This document shows, piece after piece, positions 1,597 to 38,286 of a DNA stretch of 52,027 nt. Position numbers and translations under genes: made by a program. Positions within the stretch are counted from its first letter, which is position 1; each line of letters opens with the position of its first letter. Source of the stretch: Planctomycetota bacterium (GTDB lineage Bacteria > Planctomycetota > Planctomycetia > Pirellulales > PLA5); the NCBI GenBank assembly GCA_029259895.1, contig JAJDEG010000123.1, positions 1-52,027 of the forward strand, read 5' to 3'. Under the pieces are notes generated by a model. It was not told the origin of the DNA, did no database searches, and saw only the letters and a list, made by a program, of their open reading frames with translations.

Positions 1597-2250
1597 TCAA
1601 GCCTCACGCCTTCGTTGGACGAGGGCGGCGAGCTTGTCGACGACCTCCTCGGGTGTGAGGCCGTCGGTGCGAACTTCGATGGCGTCGGGGGCCGGGACGA
1701 GGGGGCCGACGGTGCGGGTGGCGTCGCTGGCGTCGCGGTCGTTTTGTTGGGCTAGGACTTCGTCGAAGTCGATCGTTTCGCCGCGGGCGAGGAGGTCGGC
1801 GTGGCGGCGGCGGGCGCGTTCTTCGGCGCTGGCGGTGAGGAAGATTTTGCACTCGGCATTGGGGAAAGCGACCGTGCCTTGGTCGCGGCCTTCGGTGACA
1901 AAGTCGGCGGCGGCGACGACGCGCTGCTGGAGGGCGACGAGGTGCGCTCGGACTTGGGGATTGCCTGCGGTGTGGCGGGTGAGGCGGGTGACTTCGACGG
2001 TGCGGATGGCGGCCGTGACGTCCTCACCGTCGAGCAGGACGCGCTCGGCCGTGACGTCGATGTTGGCGGCATTGGCGGCGTCGGCGACGGCTTGGGCGTC
2101 GTTCCAGTCGACGCCGCGGCGATGGGCGGCCAGCGCGGCGGCGCGATACATCGCGCCAGTGTCGAGGAAGCGGAAGCCGAGACGCTCGGCGAGCCGCCGC
2201 GCGACGACGCTTTTACCGGCACCGGCGGGTCCGTCGATGGTGACGATCAT
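1597..2250 (-). CDS. cmk: Cytidylate kinase
   Basis: 217 aa; MIVTIDGPAGAGKSVVARRLAERLGFRFLDTGAMYRAAAL, EGRDQGTVAFPNAECKIFLTASAEERARRR. Confidence 0.96.
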   Translation of the reverse strand: MIVTIDGPAGAGKSVVARRLAERLGFRFLDTGAMYRAAALAAHRRGVDWNDAQAVADAANAANIDVTAERVLLDGEDVTAAIRTVEVTRLTRHTAGNPQVRAHLVALQQRVVAAADFVTEGRDQGTVAFPNAECKIFLTASAEERARRRHADLLARGETIDFDEVLAQQNDRDASDATRTVGPLVPAPDAIEVRTDGLTPEEVVDKLAALVQRRREA

Positions 2251-31228: not shown

Positions 31229-31721
31229 TGATCGGTCTCCTTCTTTCTCGATTTTTTTCTATCTGCTCAGCTACTATCTGTCACACGCGTCACCGTGGTT
31301 GCAGAAGGAGTACGACATTCGCGGCAACGCGCTGGTTCACAAAAAATGCCCGCGGGCGATGAATCGTGTTCGCCGGTCGCGCGAGTTCGTGCGGAGTGCG
31401 GTTGAGCATCGCGGCGACTGGTGGTCGAGCGGCTTGGCGGCGAGCGTTGCAAGAAGCAATTGCTTCCCGCGCAACTCGGCGCTTGGCCGACTTTTCCGGC
31501 AGTGCAGCGACGCGGTATCCGCGCACTTCAGGGCACTACGCTCGTGCTGCCGTTGGCGAACGCGCACAACGCCTCGACGCAACGCACGCGCCAGTTCACA
31601 ACTGGCACGGCGTCGGTTTCGTCGTTCGCACGCGCCGCCGCCGGCTGACCTGCAAATCGTTCATCGCCGTTGGGCGACGGTTCGTGCTTTTGGGGCACGT
31701 GGAGCCGATGGTTCGCATCGG

Positions 31722-31794
31722 CGAGTGGTGCGGGATTCGAACCCACTACAGCCAGATTCATGGTCTGGTGCTCTATCCACTGAGCTAACCACAG
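31722..31794 (-). tRNA. tRNA-Met (CAT), positions 1:72 and 2:71 mismatched
   Basis: Manual cloverleaf; anticodon loop CCATGAA, T-arm GTGGG-TTCGAAT-CCCGC. Confidence 0.8.
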
Positions 31795-31949
31795 GGGGTG
31801 CATCGCGGCCTTCGTCATATTCCACTCGCGGAACACGAATCGCTAACCGTCCGTAGATCGGAGCGACGCGCGCCGCTGGCCCAGCCGCGAAATACCTTGC
31901 TTGAAAATCGTTGCGTGATGTCGGCACGTTAGCACCGCACCACGCAAAA

Positions 31950-32021
31950 AGACGCCGGTGGGAGTCGAACCCACTTTGAACCGCTTTGCAGGCGGTCGCC
32001 TCGCCGTCTGGCTCCAGCGTC
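31950..32021 (-). tRNA. tRNA-Cys (GCA)
   Basis: Acceptor GACGCTG/CGGCGTC; loop CTGCAAA; T-arm GTGGG-TTCGACT-CCCAC; G at position 8. Confidence 0.85.
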
Positions 32022-32095
32022 GTGACCTCGCTCGCCGTTACCGGTGAGCGAGGATAGCTTTCATTCTCTAAAAGTAGTGGTCGCGATTGACGCCA

Positions 32096-32263
32096 TCAAA
32101 AACGGCCTGCCTTCATGCAGCACTTCTTGAATCGCTTGCCGCTGCCGCACGGACACATGTCGTTTCGGCCGAGCTTTTCTTCGAGTTGCTTGTCGCCATG
32201 TACGATTCGCACGCCGCGCTTGACGTGCGTTTCGGATGGGAGGCCCTTACGCCGTTTACTCAT
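32096..32263 (-). CDS. Small SEC-C motif (SecA C-terminal-like zinc-binding) protein
   Basis: [55 protein letters not shown]; longer ORF start would overlap a tRNA. Confidence 0.75.
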
Positions 32264-32350
32264 CGTCTCGAAAGCAGGACTGATCTTCTTGTTCGACCTC
32301 GCACATGGCACACCTCCATCGTGGAAAACCTCGTTGCTTCCAACAATCAG

Positions 32351-32424
32351 CGTCCTCGCCAGGAGTCGAACCTGGCCCTCGACCTTCGCAGGGTCGCGTG
32401 CAACATCCGGCACACCCCGAGGAC
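32351..32424 (-). tRNA. tRNA-Arg-like (GCG), non-canonical (G8, no A14)
   Basis: Acceptor GTCCTCG/CGAGGAC; loop CTGCGAA; T-arm CCAGG-TTCGACT-CCTGG. Confidence 0.8.
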
Positions 32425-32514
32425 TTGAACAGGGGTTGGGGGTCGGGGACTAGGGGCTGGGAAAACGCGACAACGTTCTATGCCCTCCCGCCTCTGGCCT
32501 CCGGCCTGCTCGAG

Positions 32515-32585
32515 CGCCTCGCCGAGGAGTCGAACCTCGTCTTGCAGTTTCGAAGACTGCCGTGCGTCCATCACACTCGCAAGGC
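32515..32585 (-). tRNA. tRNA-Arg-like (TCG), non-canonical (G8)
   Basis: Acceptor GCCTTGC/GCGAGGC; loop CTTCGAA; T-arm CGAGG-TTCGACT-CCTCG. Confidence 0.8.
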
Positions 32586-32975
32586 CGACCACCGTTGCCG
32601 CGGGCATCGCCGTCGACGACGAGCAACTGCGGCGACTTGATGCTCGTCGACGTAGACAATCCTTCCCGGCTCGTAGGTTCGCTGCATTTGAACGGGCACA
32701 CCGGCGTCGCGCACCGCGGCGACTAGCTCCCACATCGTCGCGATCATCCGCCGCGAACCGCAGCGAAACCAGAACAGCGCTCGCCAACCGTGGCCGCCGA
32801 GATCCGGCATGTGCAGATGTTCGCCGAACCAGTCAAGCGTCTCGCCAATCCAATCGCGCAGGACTTCGTCGACGTGCGCGGACGTTTCGACTTGTCCCGC
32901 CGCCGCGAATATTCCCAGTGGCCGCGCCGTGTTTTCGCACCGCAGCGGCGTTTGAAATCGCAAGTAAGTTTCCAT
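32571..32975 (-). CDS. Hypothetical protein inside the tRNA array
   Basis: METYLRFQTPLRCENTARPLGIFAAAGQVETSAHVDEVLRDWIGETLDWFGEHLHMPDL...; 3' end touches tRNA-Arg(TCG). Confidence 0.5.
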   Translation of the reverse strand: METYLRFQTPLRCENTARPLGIFAAAGQVETSAHVDEVLRDWIGETLDWFGEHLHMPDLGGHGWRALFWFRCGSRRMIATMWELVAAVRDAGVPVQMQRTYEPGRIVYVDEHQVAAVARRRRRCPRQRWSALRV

Positions 32976-33144
32976 CGCATTGGCTTTCGCACTGGCTTTC
33001 GCATTGTCGCGCTTCGCTTCATGACCGAAATGTCGTTGATTCAATTAGACAAAGCCGACGACTGGATTCGCACCAGCATGAGCCGCCGTCTTTCCGTGTT
33101 GCCGTCAAGACCGGCGGTTTTCTACGTCGAGCCACGTCGGCAAG

Positions 33145-33214
33145 CACGAGCGCGAGGATTCGAACCCCGTGCGCCGGCTTTGGAGACCGGCTGCTCTCCC
33201 AGGAGCACACTCGT
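33145..33214 (-). tRNA. tRNA-Trp (CCA), short D-loop
   Basis: Acceptor ACGAGTG/CGCTCGT; loop CTCCAAA; T-arm CGGGG-TTCGAAT-CCTCG; D-loop only ~6 nt. Confidence 0.82.
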
Positions 33215-33256
33215 GTTTCGCTCAACGACAGCCAGCCGCCGGGCGACGCTTCTACA

Positions 33257-33850
33257 TTACGATTGCAGCGGAACATTCCAGTACGTTTCGCTGACGAACT
33301 TCGACCAGCTTTCACTCGCCACGTCGTGCCGGGCGTATAGGGGCTTCCATGTCGGCCGCACCGGCGGCTTGCGCAGCTTCATGCCGGCCTCGCGCGGCGT
33401 GCGGTCGGCCTTGCGGTGGTTGCACGCGATGCACGCCAGCACGCAGTTCGTCCACGACGACGCGCCGCCTTTCGCACGCGGTGTAACGTGGTCGATGGTC
33501 AACTCGCCGCCGCCGGGCTGAGCGCCGCAGTATTGGCAGGTCCAGTGGTCCCGCTTGAATACGTTGCGCCGGCTGAAGCTGACCGCCGCGTCGGGCAACC
33601 GGTCGTACTCGGCCAGCACAATCACCTCCGGCACGCGCAGCCGTCGCCGCACCGCGCGGATGAACGCATCGCCGTCGCGCGGCGCGATCCGCGACCAATC
33701 GGCCCAGGTGTAAAGCTGGTAAGTCTCCGGATCGACCACCCGCGCCGCCTCGTTCCACACCAGCACCAGCGCCCGGGCGACAGTCGCTACGTTCACCGGC
33801 TGCCAGTTGCGGTTGAGGATCAGCGCCGGGCGCTGTAGTGTACGAGTCAT
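33257..33850 (-). CDS. HNH endonuclease family protein
   Basis: MTRTLQRPALILNRNWQPVNVATVARALVLVWNEAARVVD...FKRDHWTCQYCGAQPGGGELTIDHVTPRAKGGASSWTNCVLACIACNHRKADRTP. Confidence 0.92.
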   Translation of the reverse strand: MTRTLQRPALILNRNWQPVNVATVARALVLVWNEAARVVDPETYQLYTWADWSRIAPRDGDAFIRAVRRRLRVPEVIVLAEYDRLPDAAVSFSRRNVFKRDHWTCQYCGAQPGGGELTIDHVTPRAKGGASSWTNCVLACIACNHRKADRTPREAGMKLRKPPVRPTWKPLYARHDVASESWSKFVSETYWNVPLQS

Positions 33851-34281
33851 GGTTCTTGATCCAACTTGGAGTCGCGATTGTGGTTGAAGAGCGAAAAGTT
33901 GACGTTTTTTGGACGGTCCGCAAGGGTCAGCGTCATTCAATTTCGTTGACGGAAAACGAAGCCTGGAAGTATCTTGAATTGCGTGCTTATTTCGGCGAGG
34001 AACCGAACGGATGGTCAGTCGATAAAACACGTGAAGTGGTCCCCGTTGTTTACGGAGAGATCGTTGAAGGCGAGGGAACAATGGTGGAGTTGGATGATGA
34101 CGGCAATGAAACGGTTTGTCGGGCGTACATTGCGTTAAGCGTATTCTGGAACTGCCCACACTGCGGCGAACGGCACAATGTCAGCCTCTACGATAACCCT
34201 ATCGAACAAACGGCCGAGGCATCGAATCCGTCGATCTGGGTTTGTGAACGGGGCGAAGGGCATTCGATTGTTCATTGGTAG
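33838..34281 (+). CDS. Hypothetical protein with a C-x-x-C motif, plus strand within the tRNA array
   Basis: 147 aa, protein-like composition (FWNCPHCGERHNVSLYDNP); N-terminus overlaps the HNH gene start, so the true start may be internal. Confidence 0.5.
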   Translation: MYESWFLIQLGVAIVVEERKVDVFWTVRKGQRHSISLTENEAWKYLELRAYFGEEPNGWSVDKTREVVPVVYGEIVEGEGTMVELDDDGNETVCRAYIALSVFWNCPHCGERHNVSLYDNPIEQTAEASNPSIWVCERGEGHSIVHW

Positions 34282-34332
34282 CCGTTGGATTGCGACGCGC
34301 GCATCCGACGGCGTTCCAATCTGAACATTGAG

Positions 34333-34407
34333 GGTATCTGACCGGACTCGAACCGGTACCTCTTGGTTCACAGCCAAGTGTGCAGAAACCGCTACACCAC
34401 AGACACC
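34333..34407 (-). tRNA. tRNA-His (GTG) with G-1
   Basis: 8-bp acceptor GGTGTCTG/CAGATACC; loop CTGTGAA. Confidence 0.93.
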
Positions 34408-34499
34408 ACATCAGGCTATAGGCTGTAGGCTGTAGGTCAGAGAAGGCGTGCGTCTGCAACCTAAAATCCTACGGCCTACAGCCTCCGGCCTATTCTCAG

Positions 34500-34586
34500 C
34501 GGAAAGCAAGGGAGTCGAACCCTCATCTCGACGAGCGAGAACCGCGTTAGCACCGCGGCCCGGCCAACCGTATCCGGCTACCTTCC
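34500..34586 (-). tRNA. tRNA-Ser (GCT), class II
   Basis: Acceptor GGAAGGT/GCTTTCC; loop GTGCTAA; ~17-nt variable arm. Confidence 0.9.
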
Positions 34587-34626
34587 GAGTTCGGCCGTAG
34601 GGGTTTAGGCTTTAGGTATTTAGGGA

Positions 34627-34989
34627 ATGAGTATGCGAGACCATACGAAACTTCGGGCGTTCGAATTGGCGGATCGGCTCGCAATCGCGGTCTACAGGTC
34701 CACGGCGACGTTTCCTCGTGAGGAGCAGTTCGGCCTCACTTCGCAAATGCGCCGCGCGGCGGTTTCTGTCCCTTCCAACATCGTTGAAGGATGTGCGAGA
34801 GACTCCAGATCGGACTATGTCCGGTTTCTGGGTATCGCGTTCGGTTCCCTTCGAGAGTTGGATTACCAAGCGTCGCTCGCTCATCGCCTCGGCTATCTTG
34901 CCGGTTACGAATCGCTCGCGGCGCTCATGACCGAAACGTCCAAAGTTCTCGCTGCGTTGATCCGCTCTCTTCGTTCTCCCAAAACCTAA
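34627..34989 (+). CDS. Four-helix bundle protein (23S rRNA intervening-sequence/S23 family)
   Basis: LRAFELADRLAIAVYRSTATFPREEQFGLTSQMRRAAVSVPSNIVEGCARDSRSDYVRFLGIAFGSLRELDYQASLAHRLGYL. Confidence 0.93.
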   Translation: MSMRDHTKLRAFELADRLAIAVYRSTATFPREEQFGLTSQMRRAAVSVPSNIVEGCARDSRSDYVRFLGIAFGSLRELDYQASLAHRLGYLAGYESLAALMTETSKVLAALIRSLRSPKT

Positions 34990-35025
34990 CTGCCTAAACT
35001 CCTACAGCCTAAACTCCTACCGCAG

Positions 35026-35096
35026 TGGACCGCCGGGGAGTCGAACCCCGATCCCCTGGTTGCAAGCCAGGTATCTTTCCGTTGGACGAGCAGCCC
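35026..35096 (-). tRNA. tRNA-Ala (TGC)
   Basis: Acceptor GGGCTGC/GCGGTCC with G3:U70; loop CTTGCAA. Confidence 0.92.
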
Positions 35097-35112
35097 GATT
35101 CTTCTGCTTCAA

Positions 35113-35183
35113 GGGTTCGTCCGGGAACTGAACCCGGCCTTCCGCCTTACCACGGCGGCGTGCAGCCGAAACACCTACAGACC
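35113..35183 (-). tRNA. tRNA-Thr-like (GGT), degenerate (A8, C4xA69, T-loop TTCAGTT)
   Basis: Stem CCGCC/GGCGG with loop GTGGTAA; T-stem CCGGG/CCCGG. Confidence 0.7.
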
Positions 35184-35193
35184 GTTCTTCGAG

Positions 35194-35266
35194 TGATCCC
35201 GGATGGAGTCGAACCATCGCTCTCCTGCTTGTCACGCAGGCGTCTTCGCCGTTGGACCACGGGATC
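35194..35266 (-). tRNA. tRNA-Val (GAC)
   Basis: Acceptor GATCCCG/CGGGATC; loop GTGACAA; T-arm GATGG-TTCGACT-CCATC. Confidence 0.87.
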
Positions 35267-35275
35267 AGATACAAG

Positions 35276-35351
35276 TGACCGGAGTGGGCGTCGAACCCAC
35301 AAAATCACGAGGCTCTCGACCTCGTCGCTTTACCAGTTTGCGTACCCGGTC
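35276..35351 (-). tRNA. tRNA-Leu-like (GAG), no long variable arm, C33
   Basis: Acceptor GACCGGG/TCCGGTC; loop TCGAGAG; T-arm GTGGG-TTCGACG-CCCAC; variable ~7 nt. Confidence 0.8.
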
Positions 35352-35443
35352 GGAACACGCCGGAGGCTGTAGACGGGAGGCCGGAGGAAAACTCGCAATT
35401 GCGTTCCTCAAGTCTCCGGCCTCAAGCCTCGCGTCTCTTCAAG

Positions 35444-35512
35444 TGGCAGGCTCGGGTGTCGCACCCGACGGTCCGGGCTTATGAGGCCCAGTTGAGCACT
35501 GGCTCGCCTGCG
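35444..35512 (-). tRNA. tRNA-Met-like (CAT), aberrant (1:72 mismatch, minimal D-loop, T-loop TGCGACA)
   Basis: CGCAGGC/GCCTGCC; loop CTCATAA. Confidence 0.65.
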
Positions 35513-35516
35513 TCGT

Positions 35517-35625
35517 GGGAGGCTTGAGGGATGAGGCTTGAGGCGAGAGGAATGCAGTACAGCGTCTTCCTCAAGTCTCAAGTCTCAAGTCTCAAGCCTC
35601 ACGCCTCACGCCTCACGCCTTTTGC
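35517..35625. repeat. Hairpin-forming spacer repeat between tRNAs (GAGGCTTGAGG.../...CCTCAAGCCTCACGCC)
   Basis: Inverted arms with repeated GGCTTGAG / CTCAAGCC / CTCACGCC units; similar at 34416-34497, 35352-35440, 35722-35808, 35885-35978. Confidence 0.75.
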
Positions 35626-35627
35626 AG

Positions 35628-35714
35628 TGGGTCGTGAAGGAATTGAACCTCTCGTCGTCCACCTCACTTGTTTGCTGACAACGGCTTTACAGGCCGCCGT
35701 GAGGAACACGACCC
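35628..35714 (-). tRNA. tRNA-Tyr-like (GTA) with no recognisable D-arm and long variable region
   Basis: Acceptor GGGTCGT(G)/(C)ACGACCC; GCGGC-CTGTAAA-GCCGT; variable GTTGTC...GACGAC; T-loop TTCAATT. Confidence 0.7.
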
Positions 35715-35809
35715 GGAGGAGCTTTGAGTCCTGAGGTTTGAGGCGTGAGGGTTATAGAACCAACGGGCGATGCCTTCGGAACCTCAAGCCTCGTCCCTCA
35801 AGCCTCCAG

Positions 35810-35883
35810 TGGCACAGGCGGGAGTCGAACCCGCAGTCACCAAGGTTTGAGCTTGGCCGCTTTGCCGGTTTGCGTACCGTGCC
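35810..35883 (-). tRNA. tRNA-Leu-like (CAA), short variable arm
   Basis: Acceptor GGCACGG/CTGTGCC; CCAAG-CTCAAAC-CTTGG; variable TGACT. Confidence 0.85.
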
Positions 35884-35981
35884 GTGGGAAGGCGCGAGGC
35901 TTGAGGCATGGGGCGTGAGGATCGTGCTGATTTCCATTTCCTCCTCAAGCCTCATCCCTCGAGCCTCAAGCCTACTCCCAG

Positions 35982-36056
35982 CGTCCCCGACGGGATTTGA
36001 ACCCGTGACCTCCACCGTGACAGGGTGGCGAGCACTCCAGGCTGCTCCACGAGGAC
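35982..36056 (-). tRNA. tRNA-Asp (GTC)
   Basis: Acceptor GTCCTCG/CGGGGAC; CCACC-CTGTCAC-GGTGG; T-loop TTCAAAT. Confidence 0.94.
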
Positions 36057-36071
36057 GATTCAATTTTGCAG

Positions 36072-36145
36072 TGGCTCAGGTGGGACTCGAACCCACAGCA
36101 TCTCTCGTTCTAAGCGAGAGTGGTCTGCCGATTGCCTACCGAGCC
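36072..36145 (-). tRNA. tRNA-Leu-like (TAG), short variable arm
   Basis: Acceptor GGCTCGG/CTGAGCC; CTCTCG-CTTAGAA-CGAGAG; variable ATGCT. Confidence 0.85.
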
Positions 36146-36155
36146 GAAAGGTCAG

Positions 36156-36229
36156 TGCCCAGGGCCGGAGTCGAACCGGCAACCGCGTGGGTTTAAGCCG
36201 CGCCGCTCTACCGATTGGCGTACCTGGGC
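36156..36229 (-). tRNA. tRNA-Leu-like (TAA), short variable arm
   Basis: Acceptor GCCCAGG/CCTGGGC; CGCGG-CTTAAAC-CCACG (one mismatch). Confidence 0.83.
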
Positions 36230-36232
36230 GAG

Positions 36233-36304
36233 TGGTCCCGGATGGACTCGAACCATCGTTTCCTGGGTGTAGGCCAGGAGTCGTTGCCGCTGGACCACGG
36301 GACT
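36233..36304 (-). tRNA. tRNA-Val (TAC), 1:72 mismatch, C33
   Basis: AGTCCCG/CGGGACC; CCTGG-CCTACAC-CCAGG. Confidence 0.8.
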
Positions 36305-36325
36305 GTTTGCATGATCGAGTCGAAG

Positions 36326-36400
36326 TTCCGGGGGTTGGAATCGAACCAACGGCTTTCTGATTCAGAGTCAGGCGTCACTACCAGCAGCAACTGCCCCGGA
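36326..36400 (-). tRNA. tRNA-Gln (CTG)
   Basis: TCCGGGG/CCCCGGA; loop CTCTGAA; C at position 8. Confidence 0.85.
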
Positions 36401-36436
36401 ATGCTGTTCGTGCTGACATGACTCGTCGCACGAAGG

Positions 36437-36507
36437 CTCGGGGAGATGGATTCGAACCACCACTGCCTGGTTCAAAGCCAGGCGGCCTGCCGTTAGCCGA
36501 TCCCCGA
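36437..36507 (-). tRNA. tRNA-Gln (TTG)
   Basis: TCGGGGA/TCCCCGA; CCTGG-CTTTGAA-CCAGG. Confidence 0.94.
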
Positions 36508-36517
36508 ATATCGTGAA

Positions 36518-36589
36518 AGTGCCCTGCGAGAGTCGAACTCGCCTGTCCAGCTTGGAAGGCTGGCGCCTCTGCCGCTCGGCCAAGGGCAC
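36518..36589 (-). tRNA. tRNA-Gly (TCC)
   Basis: GTGCCCT/AGGGCAC; CCAGC-CTTCCAA-GCTGG. Confidence 0.94.
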
Positions 36590-36609
36590 GTCACTACGAA
36601 AGCTAGAGG

Positions 36610-36693
36610 CGGAAGGAGAGGGAGTCGAACCCTCAAGGCTCATCGCTCGACTGTTTTCGAAACAGTTGCCGTCGCCCATCGGCTTGCCCTTCC
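36610..36693 (-). tRNA. tRNA-Ser (CGA), class II
   Basis: GGAAGGG/TCCTTCC; ACTGT-TTCGAAA-ACAGT; ~15-nt variable arm; C8. Confidence 0.88.
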
Positions 36694-36707
36694 GTATTCA
36701 TCAAAAG

Positions 36708-36782
36708 CTGCGGCGGCAGGAATCGAACCTGCGACTGGGCGCTTAACAGGCGCCTGCCGGTACCAGCACCGGCCCCACCGCA
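36708..36782 (-). tRNA. tRNA-Asn (GTT)
   Basis: TGCGGTG/CGCCGCA; GGCGC-CTGTTAA-GCGCC; G8. Confidence 0.87.
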
Positions 36783-36788
36783 ATCGAG

Positions 36789-36863
36789 TCGGCGTAGTTG
36801 GATTCGAACCAACGATCTCCTGCTCCCGAAGCAGGCGGATTTGCCAGGCTATCCCATACGCCG
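36789..36863 (-). tRNA. tRNA-Pro (CGG)
   Basis: CGGCGTA/TACGCCG; CCTGC-TTCGGGA-GCAGG. Confidence 0.94.
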
Positions 36864-36871
36864 GTCGTCAA

Positions 36872-36942
36872 AGCGCCCAGCGGGAGTCGAACCCGCGCTT
36901 CCGCCTCGGCAAGGCAGCAGGCTGCCGCTACATCATGGGCGC
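36872..36942 (-). tRNA. tRNA-Gly (GCC)
   Basis: GCGCCCA/TGGGCGC; CTGCC-TTGCCGA-GGCGG. Confidence 0.9.
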
Positions 36943-36973
36943 GCTTGGAGAAGTAAATTGTCAAAGAACTGAA

Positions 36974-37045
36974 AGCACTGGGCCGGACTCGAACCGGCGT
37001 TACCGCGTTACGAACGCGGAGTCCTTGCCTCTGGACGACCAGTGC
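36974..37045 (-). tRNA. tRNA-Thr (CGT)
   Basis: GCACTGG/CCAGTGC; CCGCG-TTCGTAA-CGCGG. Confidence 0.94.
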
Positions 37046-37076
37046 TTGCCAACGTCTTGTCGGTGTGACTTATCAG

Positions 37077-37149
37077 TGGGACCAGAAGGACTCGAACCTT
37101 CACCGACCTGGTTAAGAGCCAGGCATGCTGCCGCTAACACTTTGATCCC
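37077..37149 (-). tRNA. tRNA-Lys (CTT)
   Basis: GGGATCA/TGGTCCC; CCTGG-CTCTTAA-CCAGG; A8. Confidence 0.88.
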
Positions 37150-37186
37150 GTTCAATCTCTGCTTGTCGTTTCCGCCTCTCGCGCGA

Positions 37187-37259
37187 TCGGCGCGGAAGGA
37201 GTCGAACCTTCGACCTGTGTCTTATAAGGACACGGCTCTCACCGCTGAGCTACGCGCCG
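37187..37259 (-). tRNA. tRNA-Ile (TAT)
   Basis: CGGCGCG/CGCGCCG; GTGTC-CTTATAA-GACAC. Confidence 0.92.
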
Positions 37260-37287
37260 GCACTGAAGCCAGACCAATCTGGCCGAA

Positions 37288-37359
37288 TGGGGCCGAAGGG
37301 AGTCGAACCCTTACCATTCCGCTTAAAAGGCGGAAGCGCTACCGTTACGCCACGACCCC
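37288..37359 (-). tRNA. tRNA-Lys (TTT)
   Basis: GGGGTCG/CGGCCCC; TCCGC-CTTTTAA-GCGGA. Confidence 0.94.
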
Positions 37360-37438
37360 GAAAATGGATCGGACGTATGCGTTTGAGCCGCGTCGTTTGT
37401 CGCATTGTTGTTCTCCTTGCGTTCTTTGCTCGCGCGAA

Positions 37439-37509
37439 TAGTCCGGGGTGGAGTTGAACCACCGCCGACGACGTATCAGATCGCCATGCTTCCGTTACAC
37501 CACCGGACA
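37439..37509 (-). tRNA. tRNA-Ile (GAT), 1:72 mismatch
   Basis: TGTCCGG/CCGGACT; GCGAT-CTGATAC-GTCGT; T-loop TTCAACT. Confidence 0.83.
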
Positions 37510-37586
37510 GCAATCAGGCCGAAGGCCCAAGGCGGTGGGTCGACAATGCGTTTACTCGTGCGGCCTACCGCCTCCAGCCTGCTCAG

Positions 37587-37660
37587 CGGCTCGTATGGGA
37601 GTCGAACCCATCTCCCGGCCTTGAAAGGGCCGTATCCTCAAACCGATAGACGAACGAGCC
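37587..37660 (-). tRNA. tRNA-Glu (TTC)
   Basis: GGCTCGT/ACGAGCC; CGGCC-CTTTCAA-GGCCG. Confidence 0.94.
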
Positions 37661-37687
37661 GAAATCTGCGCGCACACTGAGCGCAAG

Positions 37688-37759
37688 TGGGTCGGGAGGC
37701 GCTCGAATCCTCGTCTCCTGGTCTTCAACCAAGCGCTAAACCATCTCAGCTACCGACCC
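37688..37759 (-). tRNA. tRNA-Phe (GAA)
   Basis: GGGTCGG/CCGACCC; CTTGG-TTGAAGA-CCAGG; 53:61 A-G mismatch in the T-stem. Confidence 0.85.
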
Positions 37760-37801
37760 ATCGTTTTGTTCCGGCATGGCTTCGCGCTCGCCAAGACCAA
37801 C

Positions 37802-37833
37802 AAAAAAAGGCCCGGCGTTGTAACGCCAGGCCT
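37802..37833 (-). terminator. Intrinsic terminator upstream of the tRNA array
   Basis: Minus strand AAGGCCTGGCG-TTACAA-CGCCGGGCCTTTTTTT. Confidence 0.85.
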
Positions 37834-37960
37834 TGAATTGCCTTTCGAGCCGAATTGCCGGCCGAGCGTCACAAGCGCAATGGATGCGCGGGGCTATTCC
37901 CTACGAGGCCATTCCGATAATCGGAACAGGCGGCTCGCAGCGCGGAATAACCCGCAACTA
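37802..37960 (-). ncRNA. Candidate structured ncRNA ending at the intrinsic terminator
   Basis: No convincing ORF; long-range TATTCC/GGAATA helix (37886-37956), TTCCGA-TTA-TCGGAA hairpin, GCGCA-TCCAT-TGCGC hairpin, then terminator. Confidence 0.45.
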
Positions 37961-38286
37961 TGCGTTCTTGGTTCGATCTCGGCCGTAAAAACAACATTGA
38001 ACGAATCGCTCCATTCACAAAAGGTTCGTGAAACTAGCGGTCGCGATGCCACCGCGGCGTTTGTTAACCCTTTAGACGCCACCAAGAGACGCAAGGTTCA
38101 CAGGGTTGATCCAAGTTTGCGCCAAATATTCCCGGCGAAGAAGCGTCGTGGCAAGCAACGACACAACGCACGGACCGTTTCGGATCGCGACAGCGCTCAC
38201 TTGCGGCCCGGCACGATGCGCCATTACGATGGCTCGCGAAACGACTTTTGGCCGTGGCGTTCTTTATCTCAAGTGTTTGGATGGCG

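Follow-up and report, generated by a model that had tools for sequence, protein, structure and literature searches.

The four Leu-anticodon tRNA genes (GAG, CAA, TAG and TAA) of a planctomycete contig are probably working tRNA-Leu genes of a supernumerary, phage-type tRNA array, which would be charged by leucyl-tRNA synthetase (LeuRS) and gated by a leader. We put the probability of this joint reading, which is drawn from sequence comparison, at roughly three in four. The DNA analysed (52,027 nucleotides, hereafter the window) is an entire 52 kb contig from the draft genome (7.19 Mb) of a planctomycete.

A second tRNA set in the host genome

The features of the array and of its leader are listed in Table 1. 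The earlier note had concentrated on the four Leu genes and overlooked both the nature of the entire array, a second tRNA set of phage-like type, and the normal class II tRNA-Leu of the host. A complete ordinary tRNA set is found elsewhere in the genome, together with a single leuS, and the array is therefore regarded as a second set. The ordinary tRNA-Leu of the host have the anticodons GAG, CAA, TAA, TAG and CAG, a length of 83–86 nt and variable arms of 13–17 nt. With ~32 tRNA genes in ~6 kb, the array agrees with the L-arrays, which have at least 20 clustered tRNA genes and are supernumerary to a complete housekeeping set. As to horizontal spread, its distribution was patchy within the order and the phylum; no mobility gene was shown for the window array.

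Table 1. Position of the array, selected genes and leader elements in the window
Feature	Position	Strand	Remarks
tRNA array	31720..37759	-	30 genes found by ARAGORN, Met and Tyr added by manual reading; Phe transcribed first
HNH endonuclease ORF	33257..34159	-	within array, Trp and His on either side; cf. phage tRNA clusters
23S rRNA intervening-sequence-type four-helix protein	34630..34989	+	within array; strand opposite to array
tRNA-Leu(GAG)	35275..35351	-	77 nt, variable loop 7 nt, C33; ARAGORN, Rfam tRNA model
tRNA-Met(CAT)-like gene	35443..35513	-	missed by ARAGORN; position and anticodon as Met in homologous arrays
tRNA-Tyr(GTA)-like gene	35625..35716	-	missed by ARAGORN; long variable arm; sub-threshold structured match
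tRNA-Leu(CAA)	35809..35883	-	75 nt, variable loop 5 nt; ARAGORN, Rfam tRNA model
tRNA-Leu(TAG)	36071..36145	-	75 nt, variable loop 6 nt, D arm 1 nt shorter
tRNA-Leu(TAA)	36155..36229	-	75 nt, variable loop 5 nt; ARAGORN, Rfam tRNA model
tRNA-Ile(UAU)	37187..37259	-	
Whole leader	37799..37997	-	ORF, antiterminator and terminator; before array
Terminator hairpin	37807..37834	-	AAGGCCTGGCGTTACAACGCCGGGCCTT then TTTTT; 5' arm 37820-37832 = segment 2
Segment 1 (antiterminator 5' strand)	37860..37872	-	GTGACGCTCGGCC; holds TGA stop of leader ORF
Leader ORF	37869..37997	-	predicted; 42 codons, MLFLRPRSNQERIVAGYSALRAACSDYRNGLVGNSPAHPLRL-stop

An alternative is that the array is part of an integrated phage or mobile element and serves this element alone, the leader terminator merely ending an upstream gene. 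The array does resemble phage clusters, it carries an HNH gene and its presence is patchy. However, it is flanked by chromosomal genes of ordinary kinds (pheS, pheT, hisF, a secretion ATPase, SDR and Band 7), the near-complete isoacceptor set keeps its order across families, and conservation of the array extends to the hairpin and the leader ORF despite unrelated contigs. We consider this alternative unlikely.

Some further observations were made along the window. The tRNA-Ile with anticodon UAU is of a kind that is rare in bacteria and was not seen in the ordinary set of the host; it was also noted for planctomycete clusters in 2016 (PMC4807772). The array tRNA-Met has an apparent C1xC72 mismatch and is somewhat initiator-like. 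The spacers at 35360-35980 hold dense short repeats of the CTCAAGCCTCACGCCT type on both strands. A tRNA-Ala call by ARAGORN at 2028-2122 (+) is probably spurious, as an Rfam tRNA match is absent there.

tRNA-Leu genes with a short variable loop

According to reference texts, bacterial tRNA-Leu always has a long variable arm. The earlier note had placed the four Leu anticodons on a short-arm scaffold with T8-A9 and A73, and both points were confirmed in all four genes. The parsed variable loops have 7, 5, 6 and 5 nt (GAG TGATTTT, CAA TGACT, TAG GATGCT, TAA CGGTT), which is short of the long arm of class II, and none of the genes has a hidden class II arm. The common D arm that had been described held for three genes (CGC-N-GCG), but not for TAG, which has GGC...CC. 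The cloverleaf is ordinary, with 7/5 acceptor/T arms in 4/4 genes plus the short loop, and not of the allo-tRNA architecture (8/4 or 9/3). The genes are filed as a class I variant and not as standard class II tRNA-Leu. The Rfam tRNA model matched CAA, TAA and TAG at the gathering score; GAG scored 39.1 bits in a restricted scan.

The short-loop genes are not a product of chance, since homologues whose loop is equally short are found again in other arrays of the order and the phylum. Leu-CAA was found with identity over 75 nt in a genome from another family.

In 43 of 60 array Leu-GAG genes, C33 replaces the near-universal U33. C33 is also frequent in array Glu-CTC, Val, Thr, Ala and Pro tRNAs; in total, it was present in 202 of 1697 array tRNAs versus 1 of 44 host tRNAs. 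In Leu-GAG, this could impair decoding. By analogy to the protection from anticodon nucleases reported for phage tRNAs (PMC10264068), C33 may possibly be protective.

Restriction of arm loss to leucine

A short arm (loop <10 nt) was present in 218 of 264 distinct array tRNA-Leu. By anticodon, these were 59 GAG, 55 CAA, 47 TAA, 34 TAG, 22 CAG and 1 AAG, the single AAG gene appearing misassigned. CAG accounted for 35 of the 46 long-arm Leu genes. In the same arrays, the long arm was kept in 124 of 126 Ser and in all 30 Tyr genes. Within the arrays, arm loss is confined to Leu.

Leucine identity and likely charging

All four window genes have A73, A14, A15-U48, G18G19 and A20a, identical to the five long-arm tRNA-Leu of the host. 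This is the set required by the Escherichia coli LeuRS, which does not require the variable arm, according to a 2023 review that admits armless tRNA-Leu in animal mitochondria only (PMC9976931). As judged from their sequences, the array tRNA-Leu appear to fit the identity rule of this review and to contradict its mitochondria-only statement.

The signals were largely maintained beyond the window: with positions 15 and 48 read from ARAGORN's structure, A73 was found in 248 and A15-U48 in 245 of 264 distinct array Leu, and both together in 191 of the 218 short-arm genes. About 6% of array Leu genes had no A73 as parsed, meaning that some are misparsed or decaying. G3-U70 was found in 2 of 218 short-arm Leu versus 79 of 88 array Ala. 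Neither Ser signal (long arm, G73) was seen in the short-arm Leu, and G73 was present in 118 of 124 long-arm array Ser. Isotype signals are thus preserved throughout the array.

To our knowledge, only LeuRS, SerRS and AlaRS disregard the anticodon; most other synthetases read it. As the Ser and Ala signals are missing, LeuRS is left as the likely charging enzyme. A second LeuRS, for which the earlier note had proposed a search, was not found: one leuS was present in the host and one in each of ten array-bearing genomes of the order.

The earlier note had left open whether LeuRS accepts these tRNAs or whether they are charged with something else. In the latter case, they would carry another amino acid and the array would recode some leucine codons. 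The scaffold is indeed atypical of bacterial tRNA-Leu, and the A73/A15-U48/A20a set also occurs in many array Ala and some Lys tRNAs. This has to be set against the anticodon, which is always Leu where most other synthetases would read it, against the requirement of Ser for the long arm and G73 and of Ala for G3-U70, and against the absence of an extra LeuRS-like enzyme. We regard recoding as very improbable. Acceptance by LeuRS is supported by the identity set kept in 4/4 genes and by an enzyme that would act without the arm (PMC9976931).

The short tRNA-Leu are therefore most likely leucylated and under selection, as suggested by the retained identity set (A73, A15-U48, A20a) and by covarying stems. 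The single ordinary LeuRS of the cell would charge the four tRNAs with leucine, since bacterial LeuRS reads A73 and the core (A14, A15-U48, G18G19, A20a), not the arm. An arm-independent LeuRS would also explain why only Leu lost the arm, as the Ser and Tyr synthetases use theirs.

Conservation of the array

A blastn search of the array against 58 relatives recovered arrays in many families of the order, and homologous arrays occur across Planctomycetota. Lacipirellula limnantheis and Bythopirellula polymerisocia are cultured species that carry one. They hold a near-complete isoacceptor set, the order of which is conserved between families: Phe-Glu-Pro-Ile-Lys-Ile-Lys-Thr-Gly-Pro-Asn-Ser-Gly-Gln-Gln-Val-Leu-Leu, followed by Asp-Leu-Tyr-Glu-Leu-Met-Leu-Val-Thr-Ala-Ser-Arg-His-Trp-Thr-Arg-Cys. 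A strict Leu pattern (D arm of GAG/CAA/TAA plus anticodon arm) matched 82 stretches when 85,462 species genomes were scanned, and almost all of these lay in Planctomycetota. Among 394 planctomycete genomes, 24 had the pattern and none a reversed control pattern. A match in Fulvivirga was due to chance, with no tRNA at that site.

When comparing the window array with two genomes from other families, tRNA identity was 85 and 87%, and that of the spacers 48%. Stem pairing per Leu isoacceptor was 97–99% versus 72–84% after shuffling, the first figure being inflated because ARAGORN favours well-paired genes. Double changes were found in 15–16 of 17 stem pairs of the Leu isoacceptors. The array thus appears to be old and selected.

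Planctomycete tRNA clusters were noticed in 2016 and termed degenerate, with partly degraded tRNAs (PMC4807772). The array could accordingly be a decaying relic with unexpressed or defective genes, the short loop being the result of lost constraint. The low scores of the window Gln-CTG, Trp and Asn genes, Met and Tyr below the ARAGORN threshold, and the restriction of the strict Leu pattern to few genomes are in line with this. Decay is nevertheless quite unlikely: the tRNAs are much better conserved than the spacers, double changes maintain the pairing of the stems, isotype-specific discriminators and G3-U70 are maintained, the arm was lost in Leu only and an identical Leu-CAA occurs in different families. 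For most array genes, this conservation argues against degeneracy.

A predicted attenuator upstream of tRNA-Phe

We examined 53 upstream regions, 49 of them with Phe as the first gene. A hairpin rich in GC and with a T run, oriented like the array (AAGGCCCGGTGTCAC..GACAYCGGGCYTTTTTT), was found in 41 of the 53. About 20 nt upstream of the hairpin, GTGACRCTYGGCC is conserved and can pair with the 5' arm of the hairpin. An intrinsic terminator before the first gene and a competing antiterminator, as expected of an attenuator, are hence both present.

In an alignment of 26 leaders, the terminator was paired to 98.8% (covariation 0.269 vs 0.203; 0/500 shuffles) and the antiterminator to 91.9% (0.213 vs 0.179; 1/500 shuffles). 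Columns 54 and 61 of the shared strand covary with both alternative partners. The covariation of the antiterminator is modest, its segments being nearly invariant. The pairing energy of the upstream region was barely above shuffles (mean z about -1). As the energy alone is weak, the argument for the antiterminator is built on its position, the covariation and the ORF.

The leader ORF has 31–57 codons and is ended by a TGA within GTGAC. Of 34 distinct leaders, 33 have an ATG start, and the predicted peptides resemble one another (M.FLR.SS..ER..G.YSA...AGN.P..PLRL). Substitutions at codon positions 1, 2 and 3 were 0.30, 0.36 and 0.44. Changed codons were synonymous in 27% versus 11.5% in the next frame, in an alignment made on amino acids.

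A model of the leader gave strong matches across the order, and all 30 loci fetched from the best matches have tRNA genes. No Rfam family matched the leader, and a scan for sigma-70-like promoters performed no better than chance. Five further leader-like elements had no recognisable tRNA array behind them; these are remnants, weak false matches or leaders of other genes.

A ribosome on the leader stop would cover ~12 nt beyond it, which is segment 1; the terminator would then form and the array would be off. If the ribosome stalled earlier, segment 1 would be free to pair with the 5' arm of the terminator and the array would be transcribed. We infer that the leader acts as a transcription attenuator that would open the array when translation falters. 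This would fit, by analogy, the trn operon of Anabaena, which is off by default and on with translation inhibitors.

Taken further, the array would be a second full phage-type set with armless Leu under a leader-peptide attenuator, switched on when ribosomes stall, as a back-up against tRNA-cleaving toxins or phage. This extended reading is tentative, and we give it somewhat less than an even chance.

Short-arm tRNA-Leu in phages and other mobile pools

Among named sequences, those closest to Leu-CAA are annotated mycobacteriophage tRNA-Leu of 75 nt, with 75–77% identity over the full length. Short-arm Leu were found in phages of Mycobacterium, Gordonia, Rhodococcus and Acinetobacter. By contrast, the tRNA-Leu of phage T5 has 85 nt. 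In IMG/VR contigs chosen by Asp, Asn or Lys tRNA patterns and not by Leu, 57 of 110 Leu were short, spread over 37 of 61 loci. Loop lengths were bimodal (mostly 5–7 vs 10–21), and in the same sample the arm was kept in 71 of 73 Ser and 30 of 31 Tyr. Short-arm tRNA-Leu is a widespread trait of phage and mobile tRNA pools and not a local oddity. As it is common in phages, the array is one instance of a wide mobile-pool pattern. Short phage tRNA-Leu may already have been remarked upon elsewhere; our literature search covered open papers.

In four loci, phage-type Leu had an otherwise canonical Leu D arm and only the variable arm was missing. Arm loss has therefore probably occurred more than once. 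The four array Leu would descend from phage tRNA-Leu or share a pool with them.

A search of named plasmids for a source of horizontal transfer gave scattered single-tRNA matches only, except for one Mycolicibacterium plasmid array with two short-arm Leu. An Azospirillum match to Leu-TAA was rejected, being a normal tRNA-Phe. A 94 kb contig filed as viral (IMGVR_UViG_3300007072_000340) carries a planctomycete-type array of 25 tRNAs. It was not accepted as proof of a virus, as no terminase was found on it and it came with no completeness estimate, and it is perhaps a misfiled piece of chromosome.

Comparison with known systems

Leu-only arm loss, in the arrays and in about half of the sampled phage Leu, amounts to an evolutionary test of the synthetases' need for the arm. 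Short-arm Leu supply scaffolds for a compact tRNA-Leu; software for tRNA detection or isotype classification may mislabel them if it expects class II. If confirmed, the leader would couple the spare set to translational state, and it would offer a direct approach to the question of why spare tRNA sets are retained by bacteria and phages. We know of no other attenuator gating a full tRNA set, so that this would be the first if the leader reading is true.

Among phages, we compared the mycobacteriophages Zetzy, Jobu08, LinStu and DuncansLeg, Gordonia phage Forza, Rhodococcus phage NiceHouse and Acinetobacter saclayviruses. Their tRNA-Leu are alike in length (74–80 nt), short variable loop, A73 and A15-U48, and several have the D arm GCAAA..GG.AAAGC. 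In contrast to the planctomycete array, phage sets are usually partial, and many phage Leu are armless on other D-arm types. Because these D-arm types differ, arm loss in phages was probably recurrent.

Animal mitochondrial tRNA-Leu likewise have no long arm and are recognised via A73 and A14 (PMC9976931). They are organellar, with floppy stems and a dedicated mt-LeuRS, whereas the array Leu fold into stable cloverleaves and coexist with class II tRNA-Leu in the same bacterium.

The leader shares with trp-type attenuators a short leader ORF, a stop in the antiterminator strand and a terminator before the first structural gene. It differs in that a tRNA array would be controlled and that no run of a single control codon was noted.

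The nearest counterpart of the array among L-arrays is the trn operon on the delta plasmid of Anabaena PCC 7120, with 26 genes that are normally silent and are induced by antibiotics that target translation (PMC10272220). Both are long supernumerary clusters beside a full housekeeping set. The Anabaena operon is plasmid-borne and has the repressor TrcR, whereas the planctomycete array is chromosomal and an attenuator in its leader is proposed.
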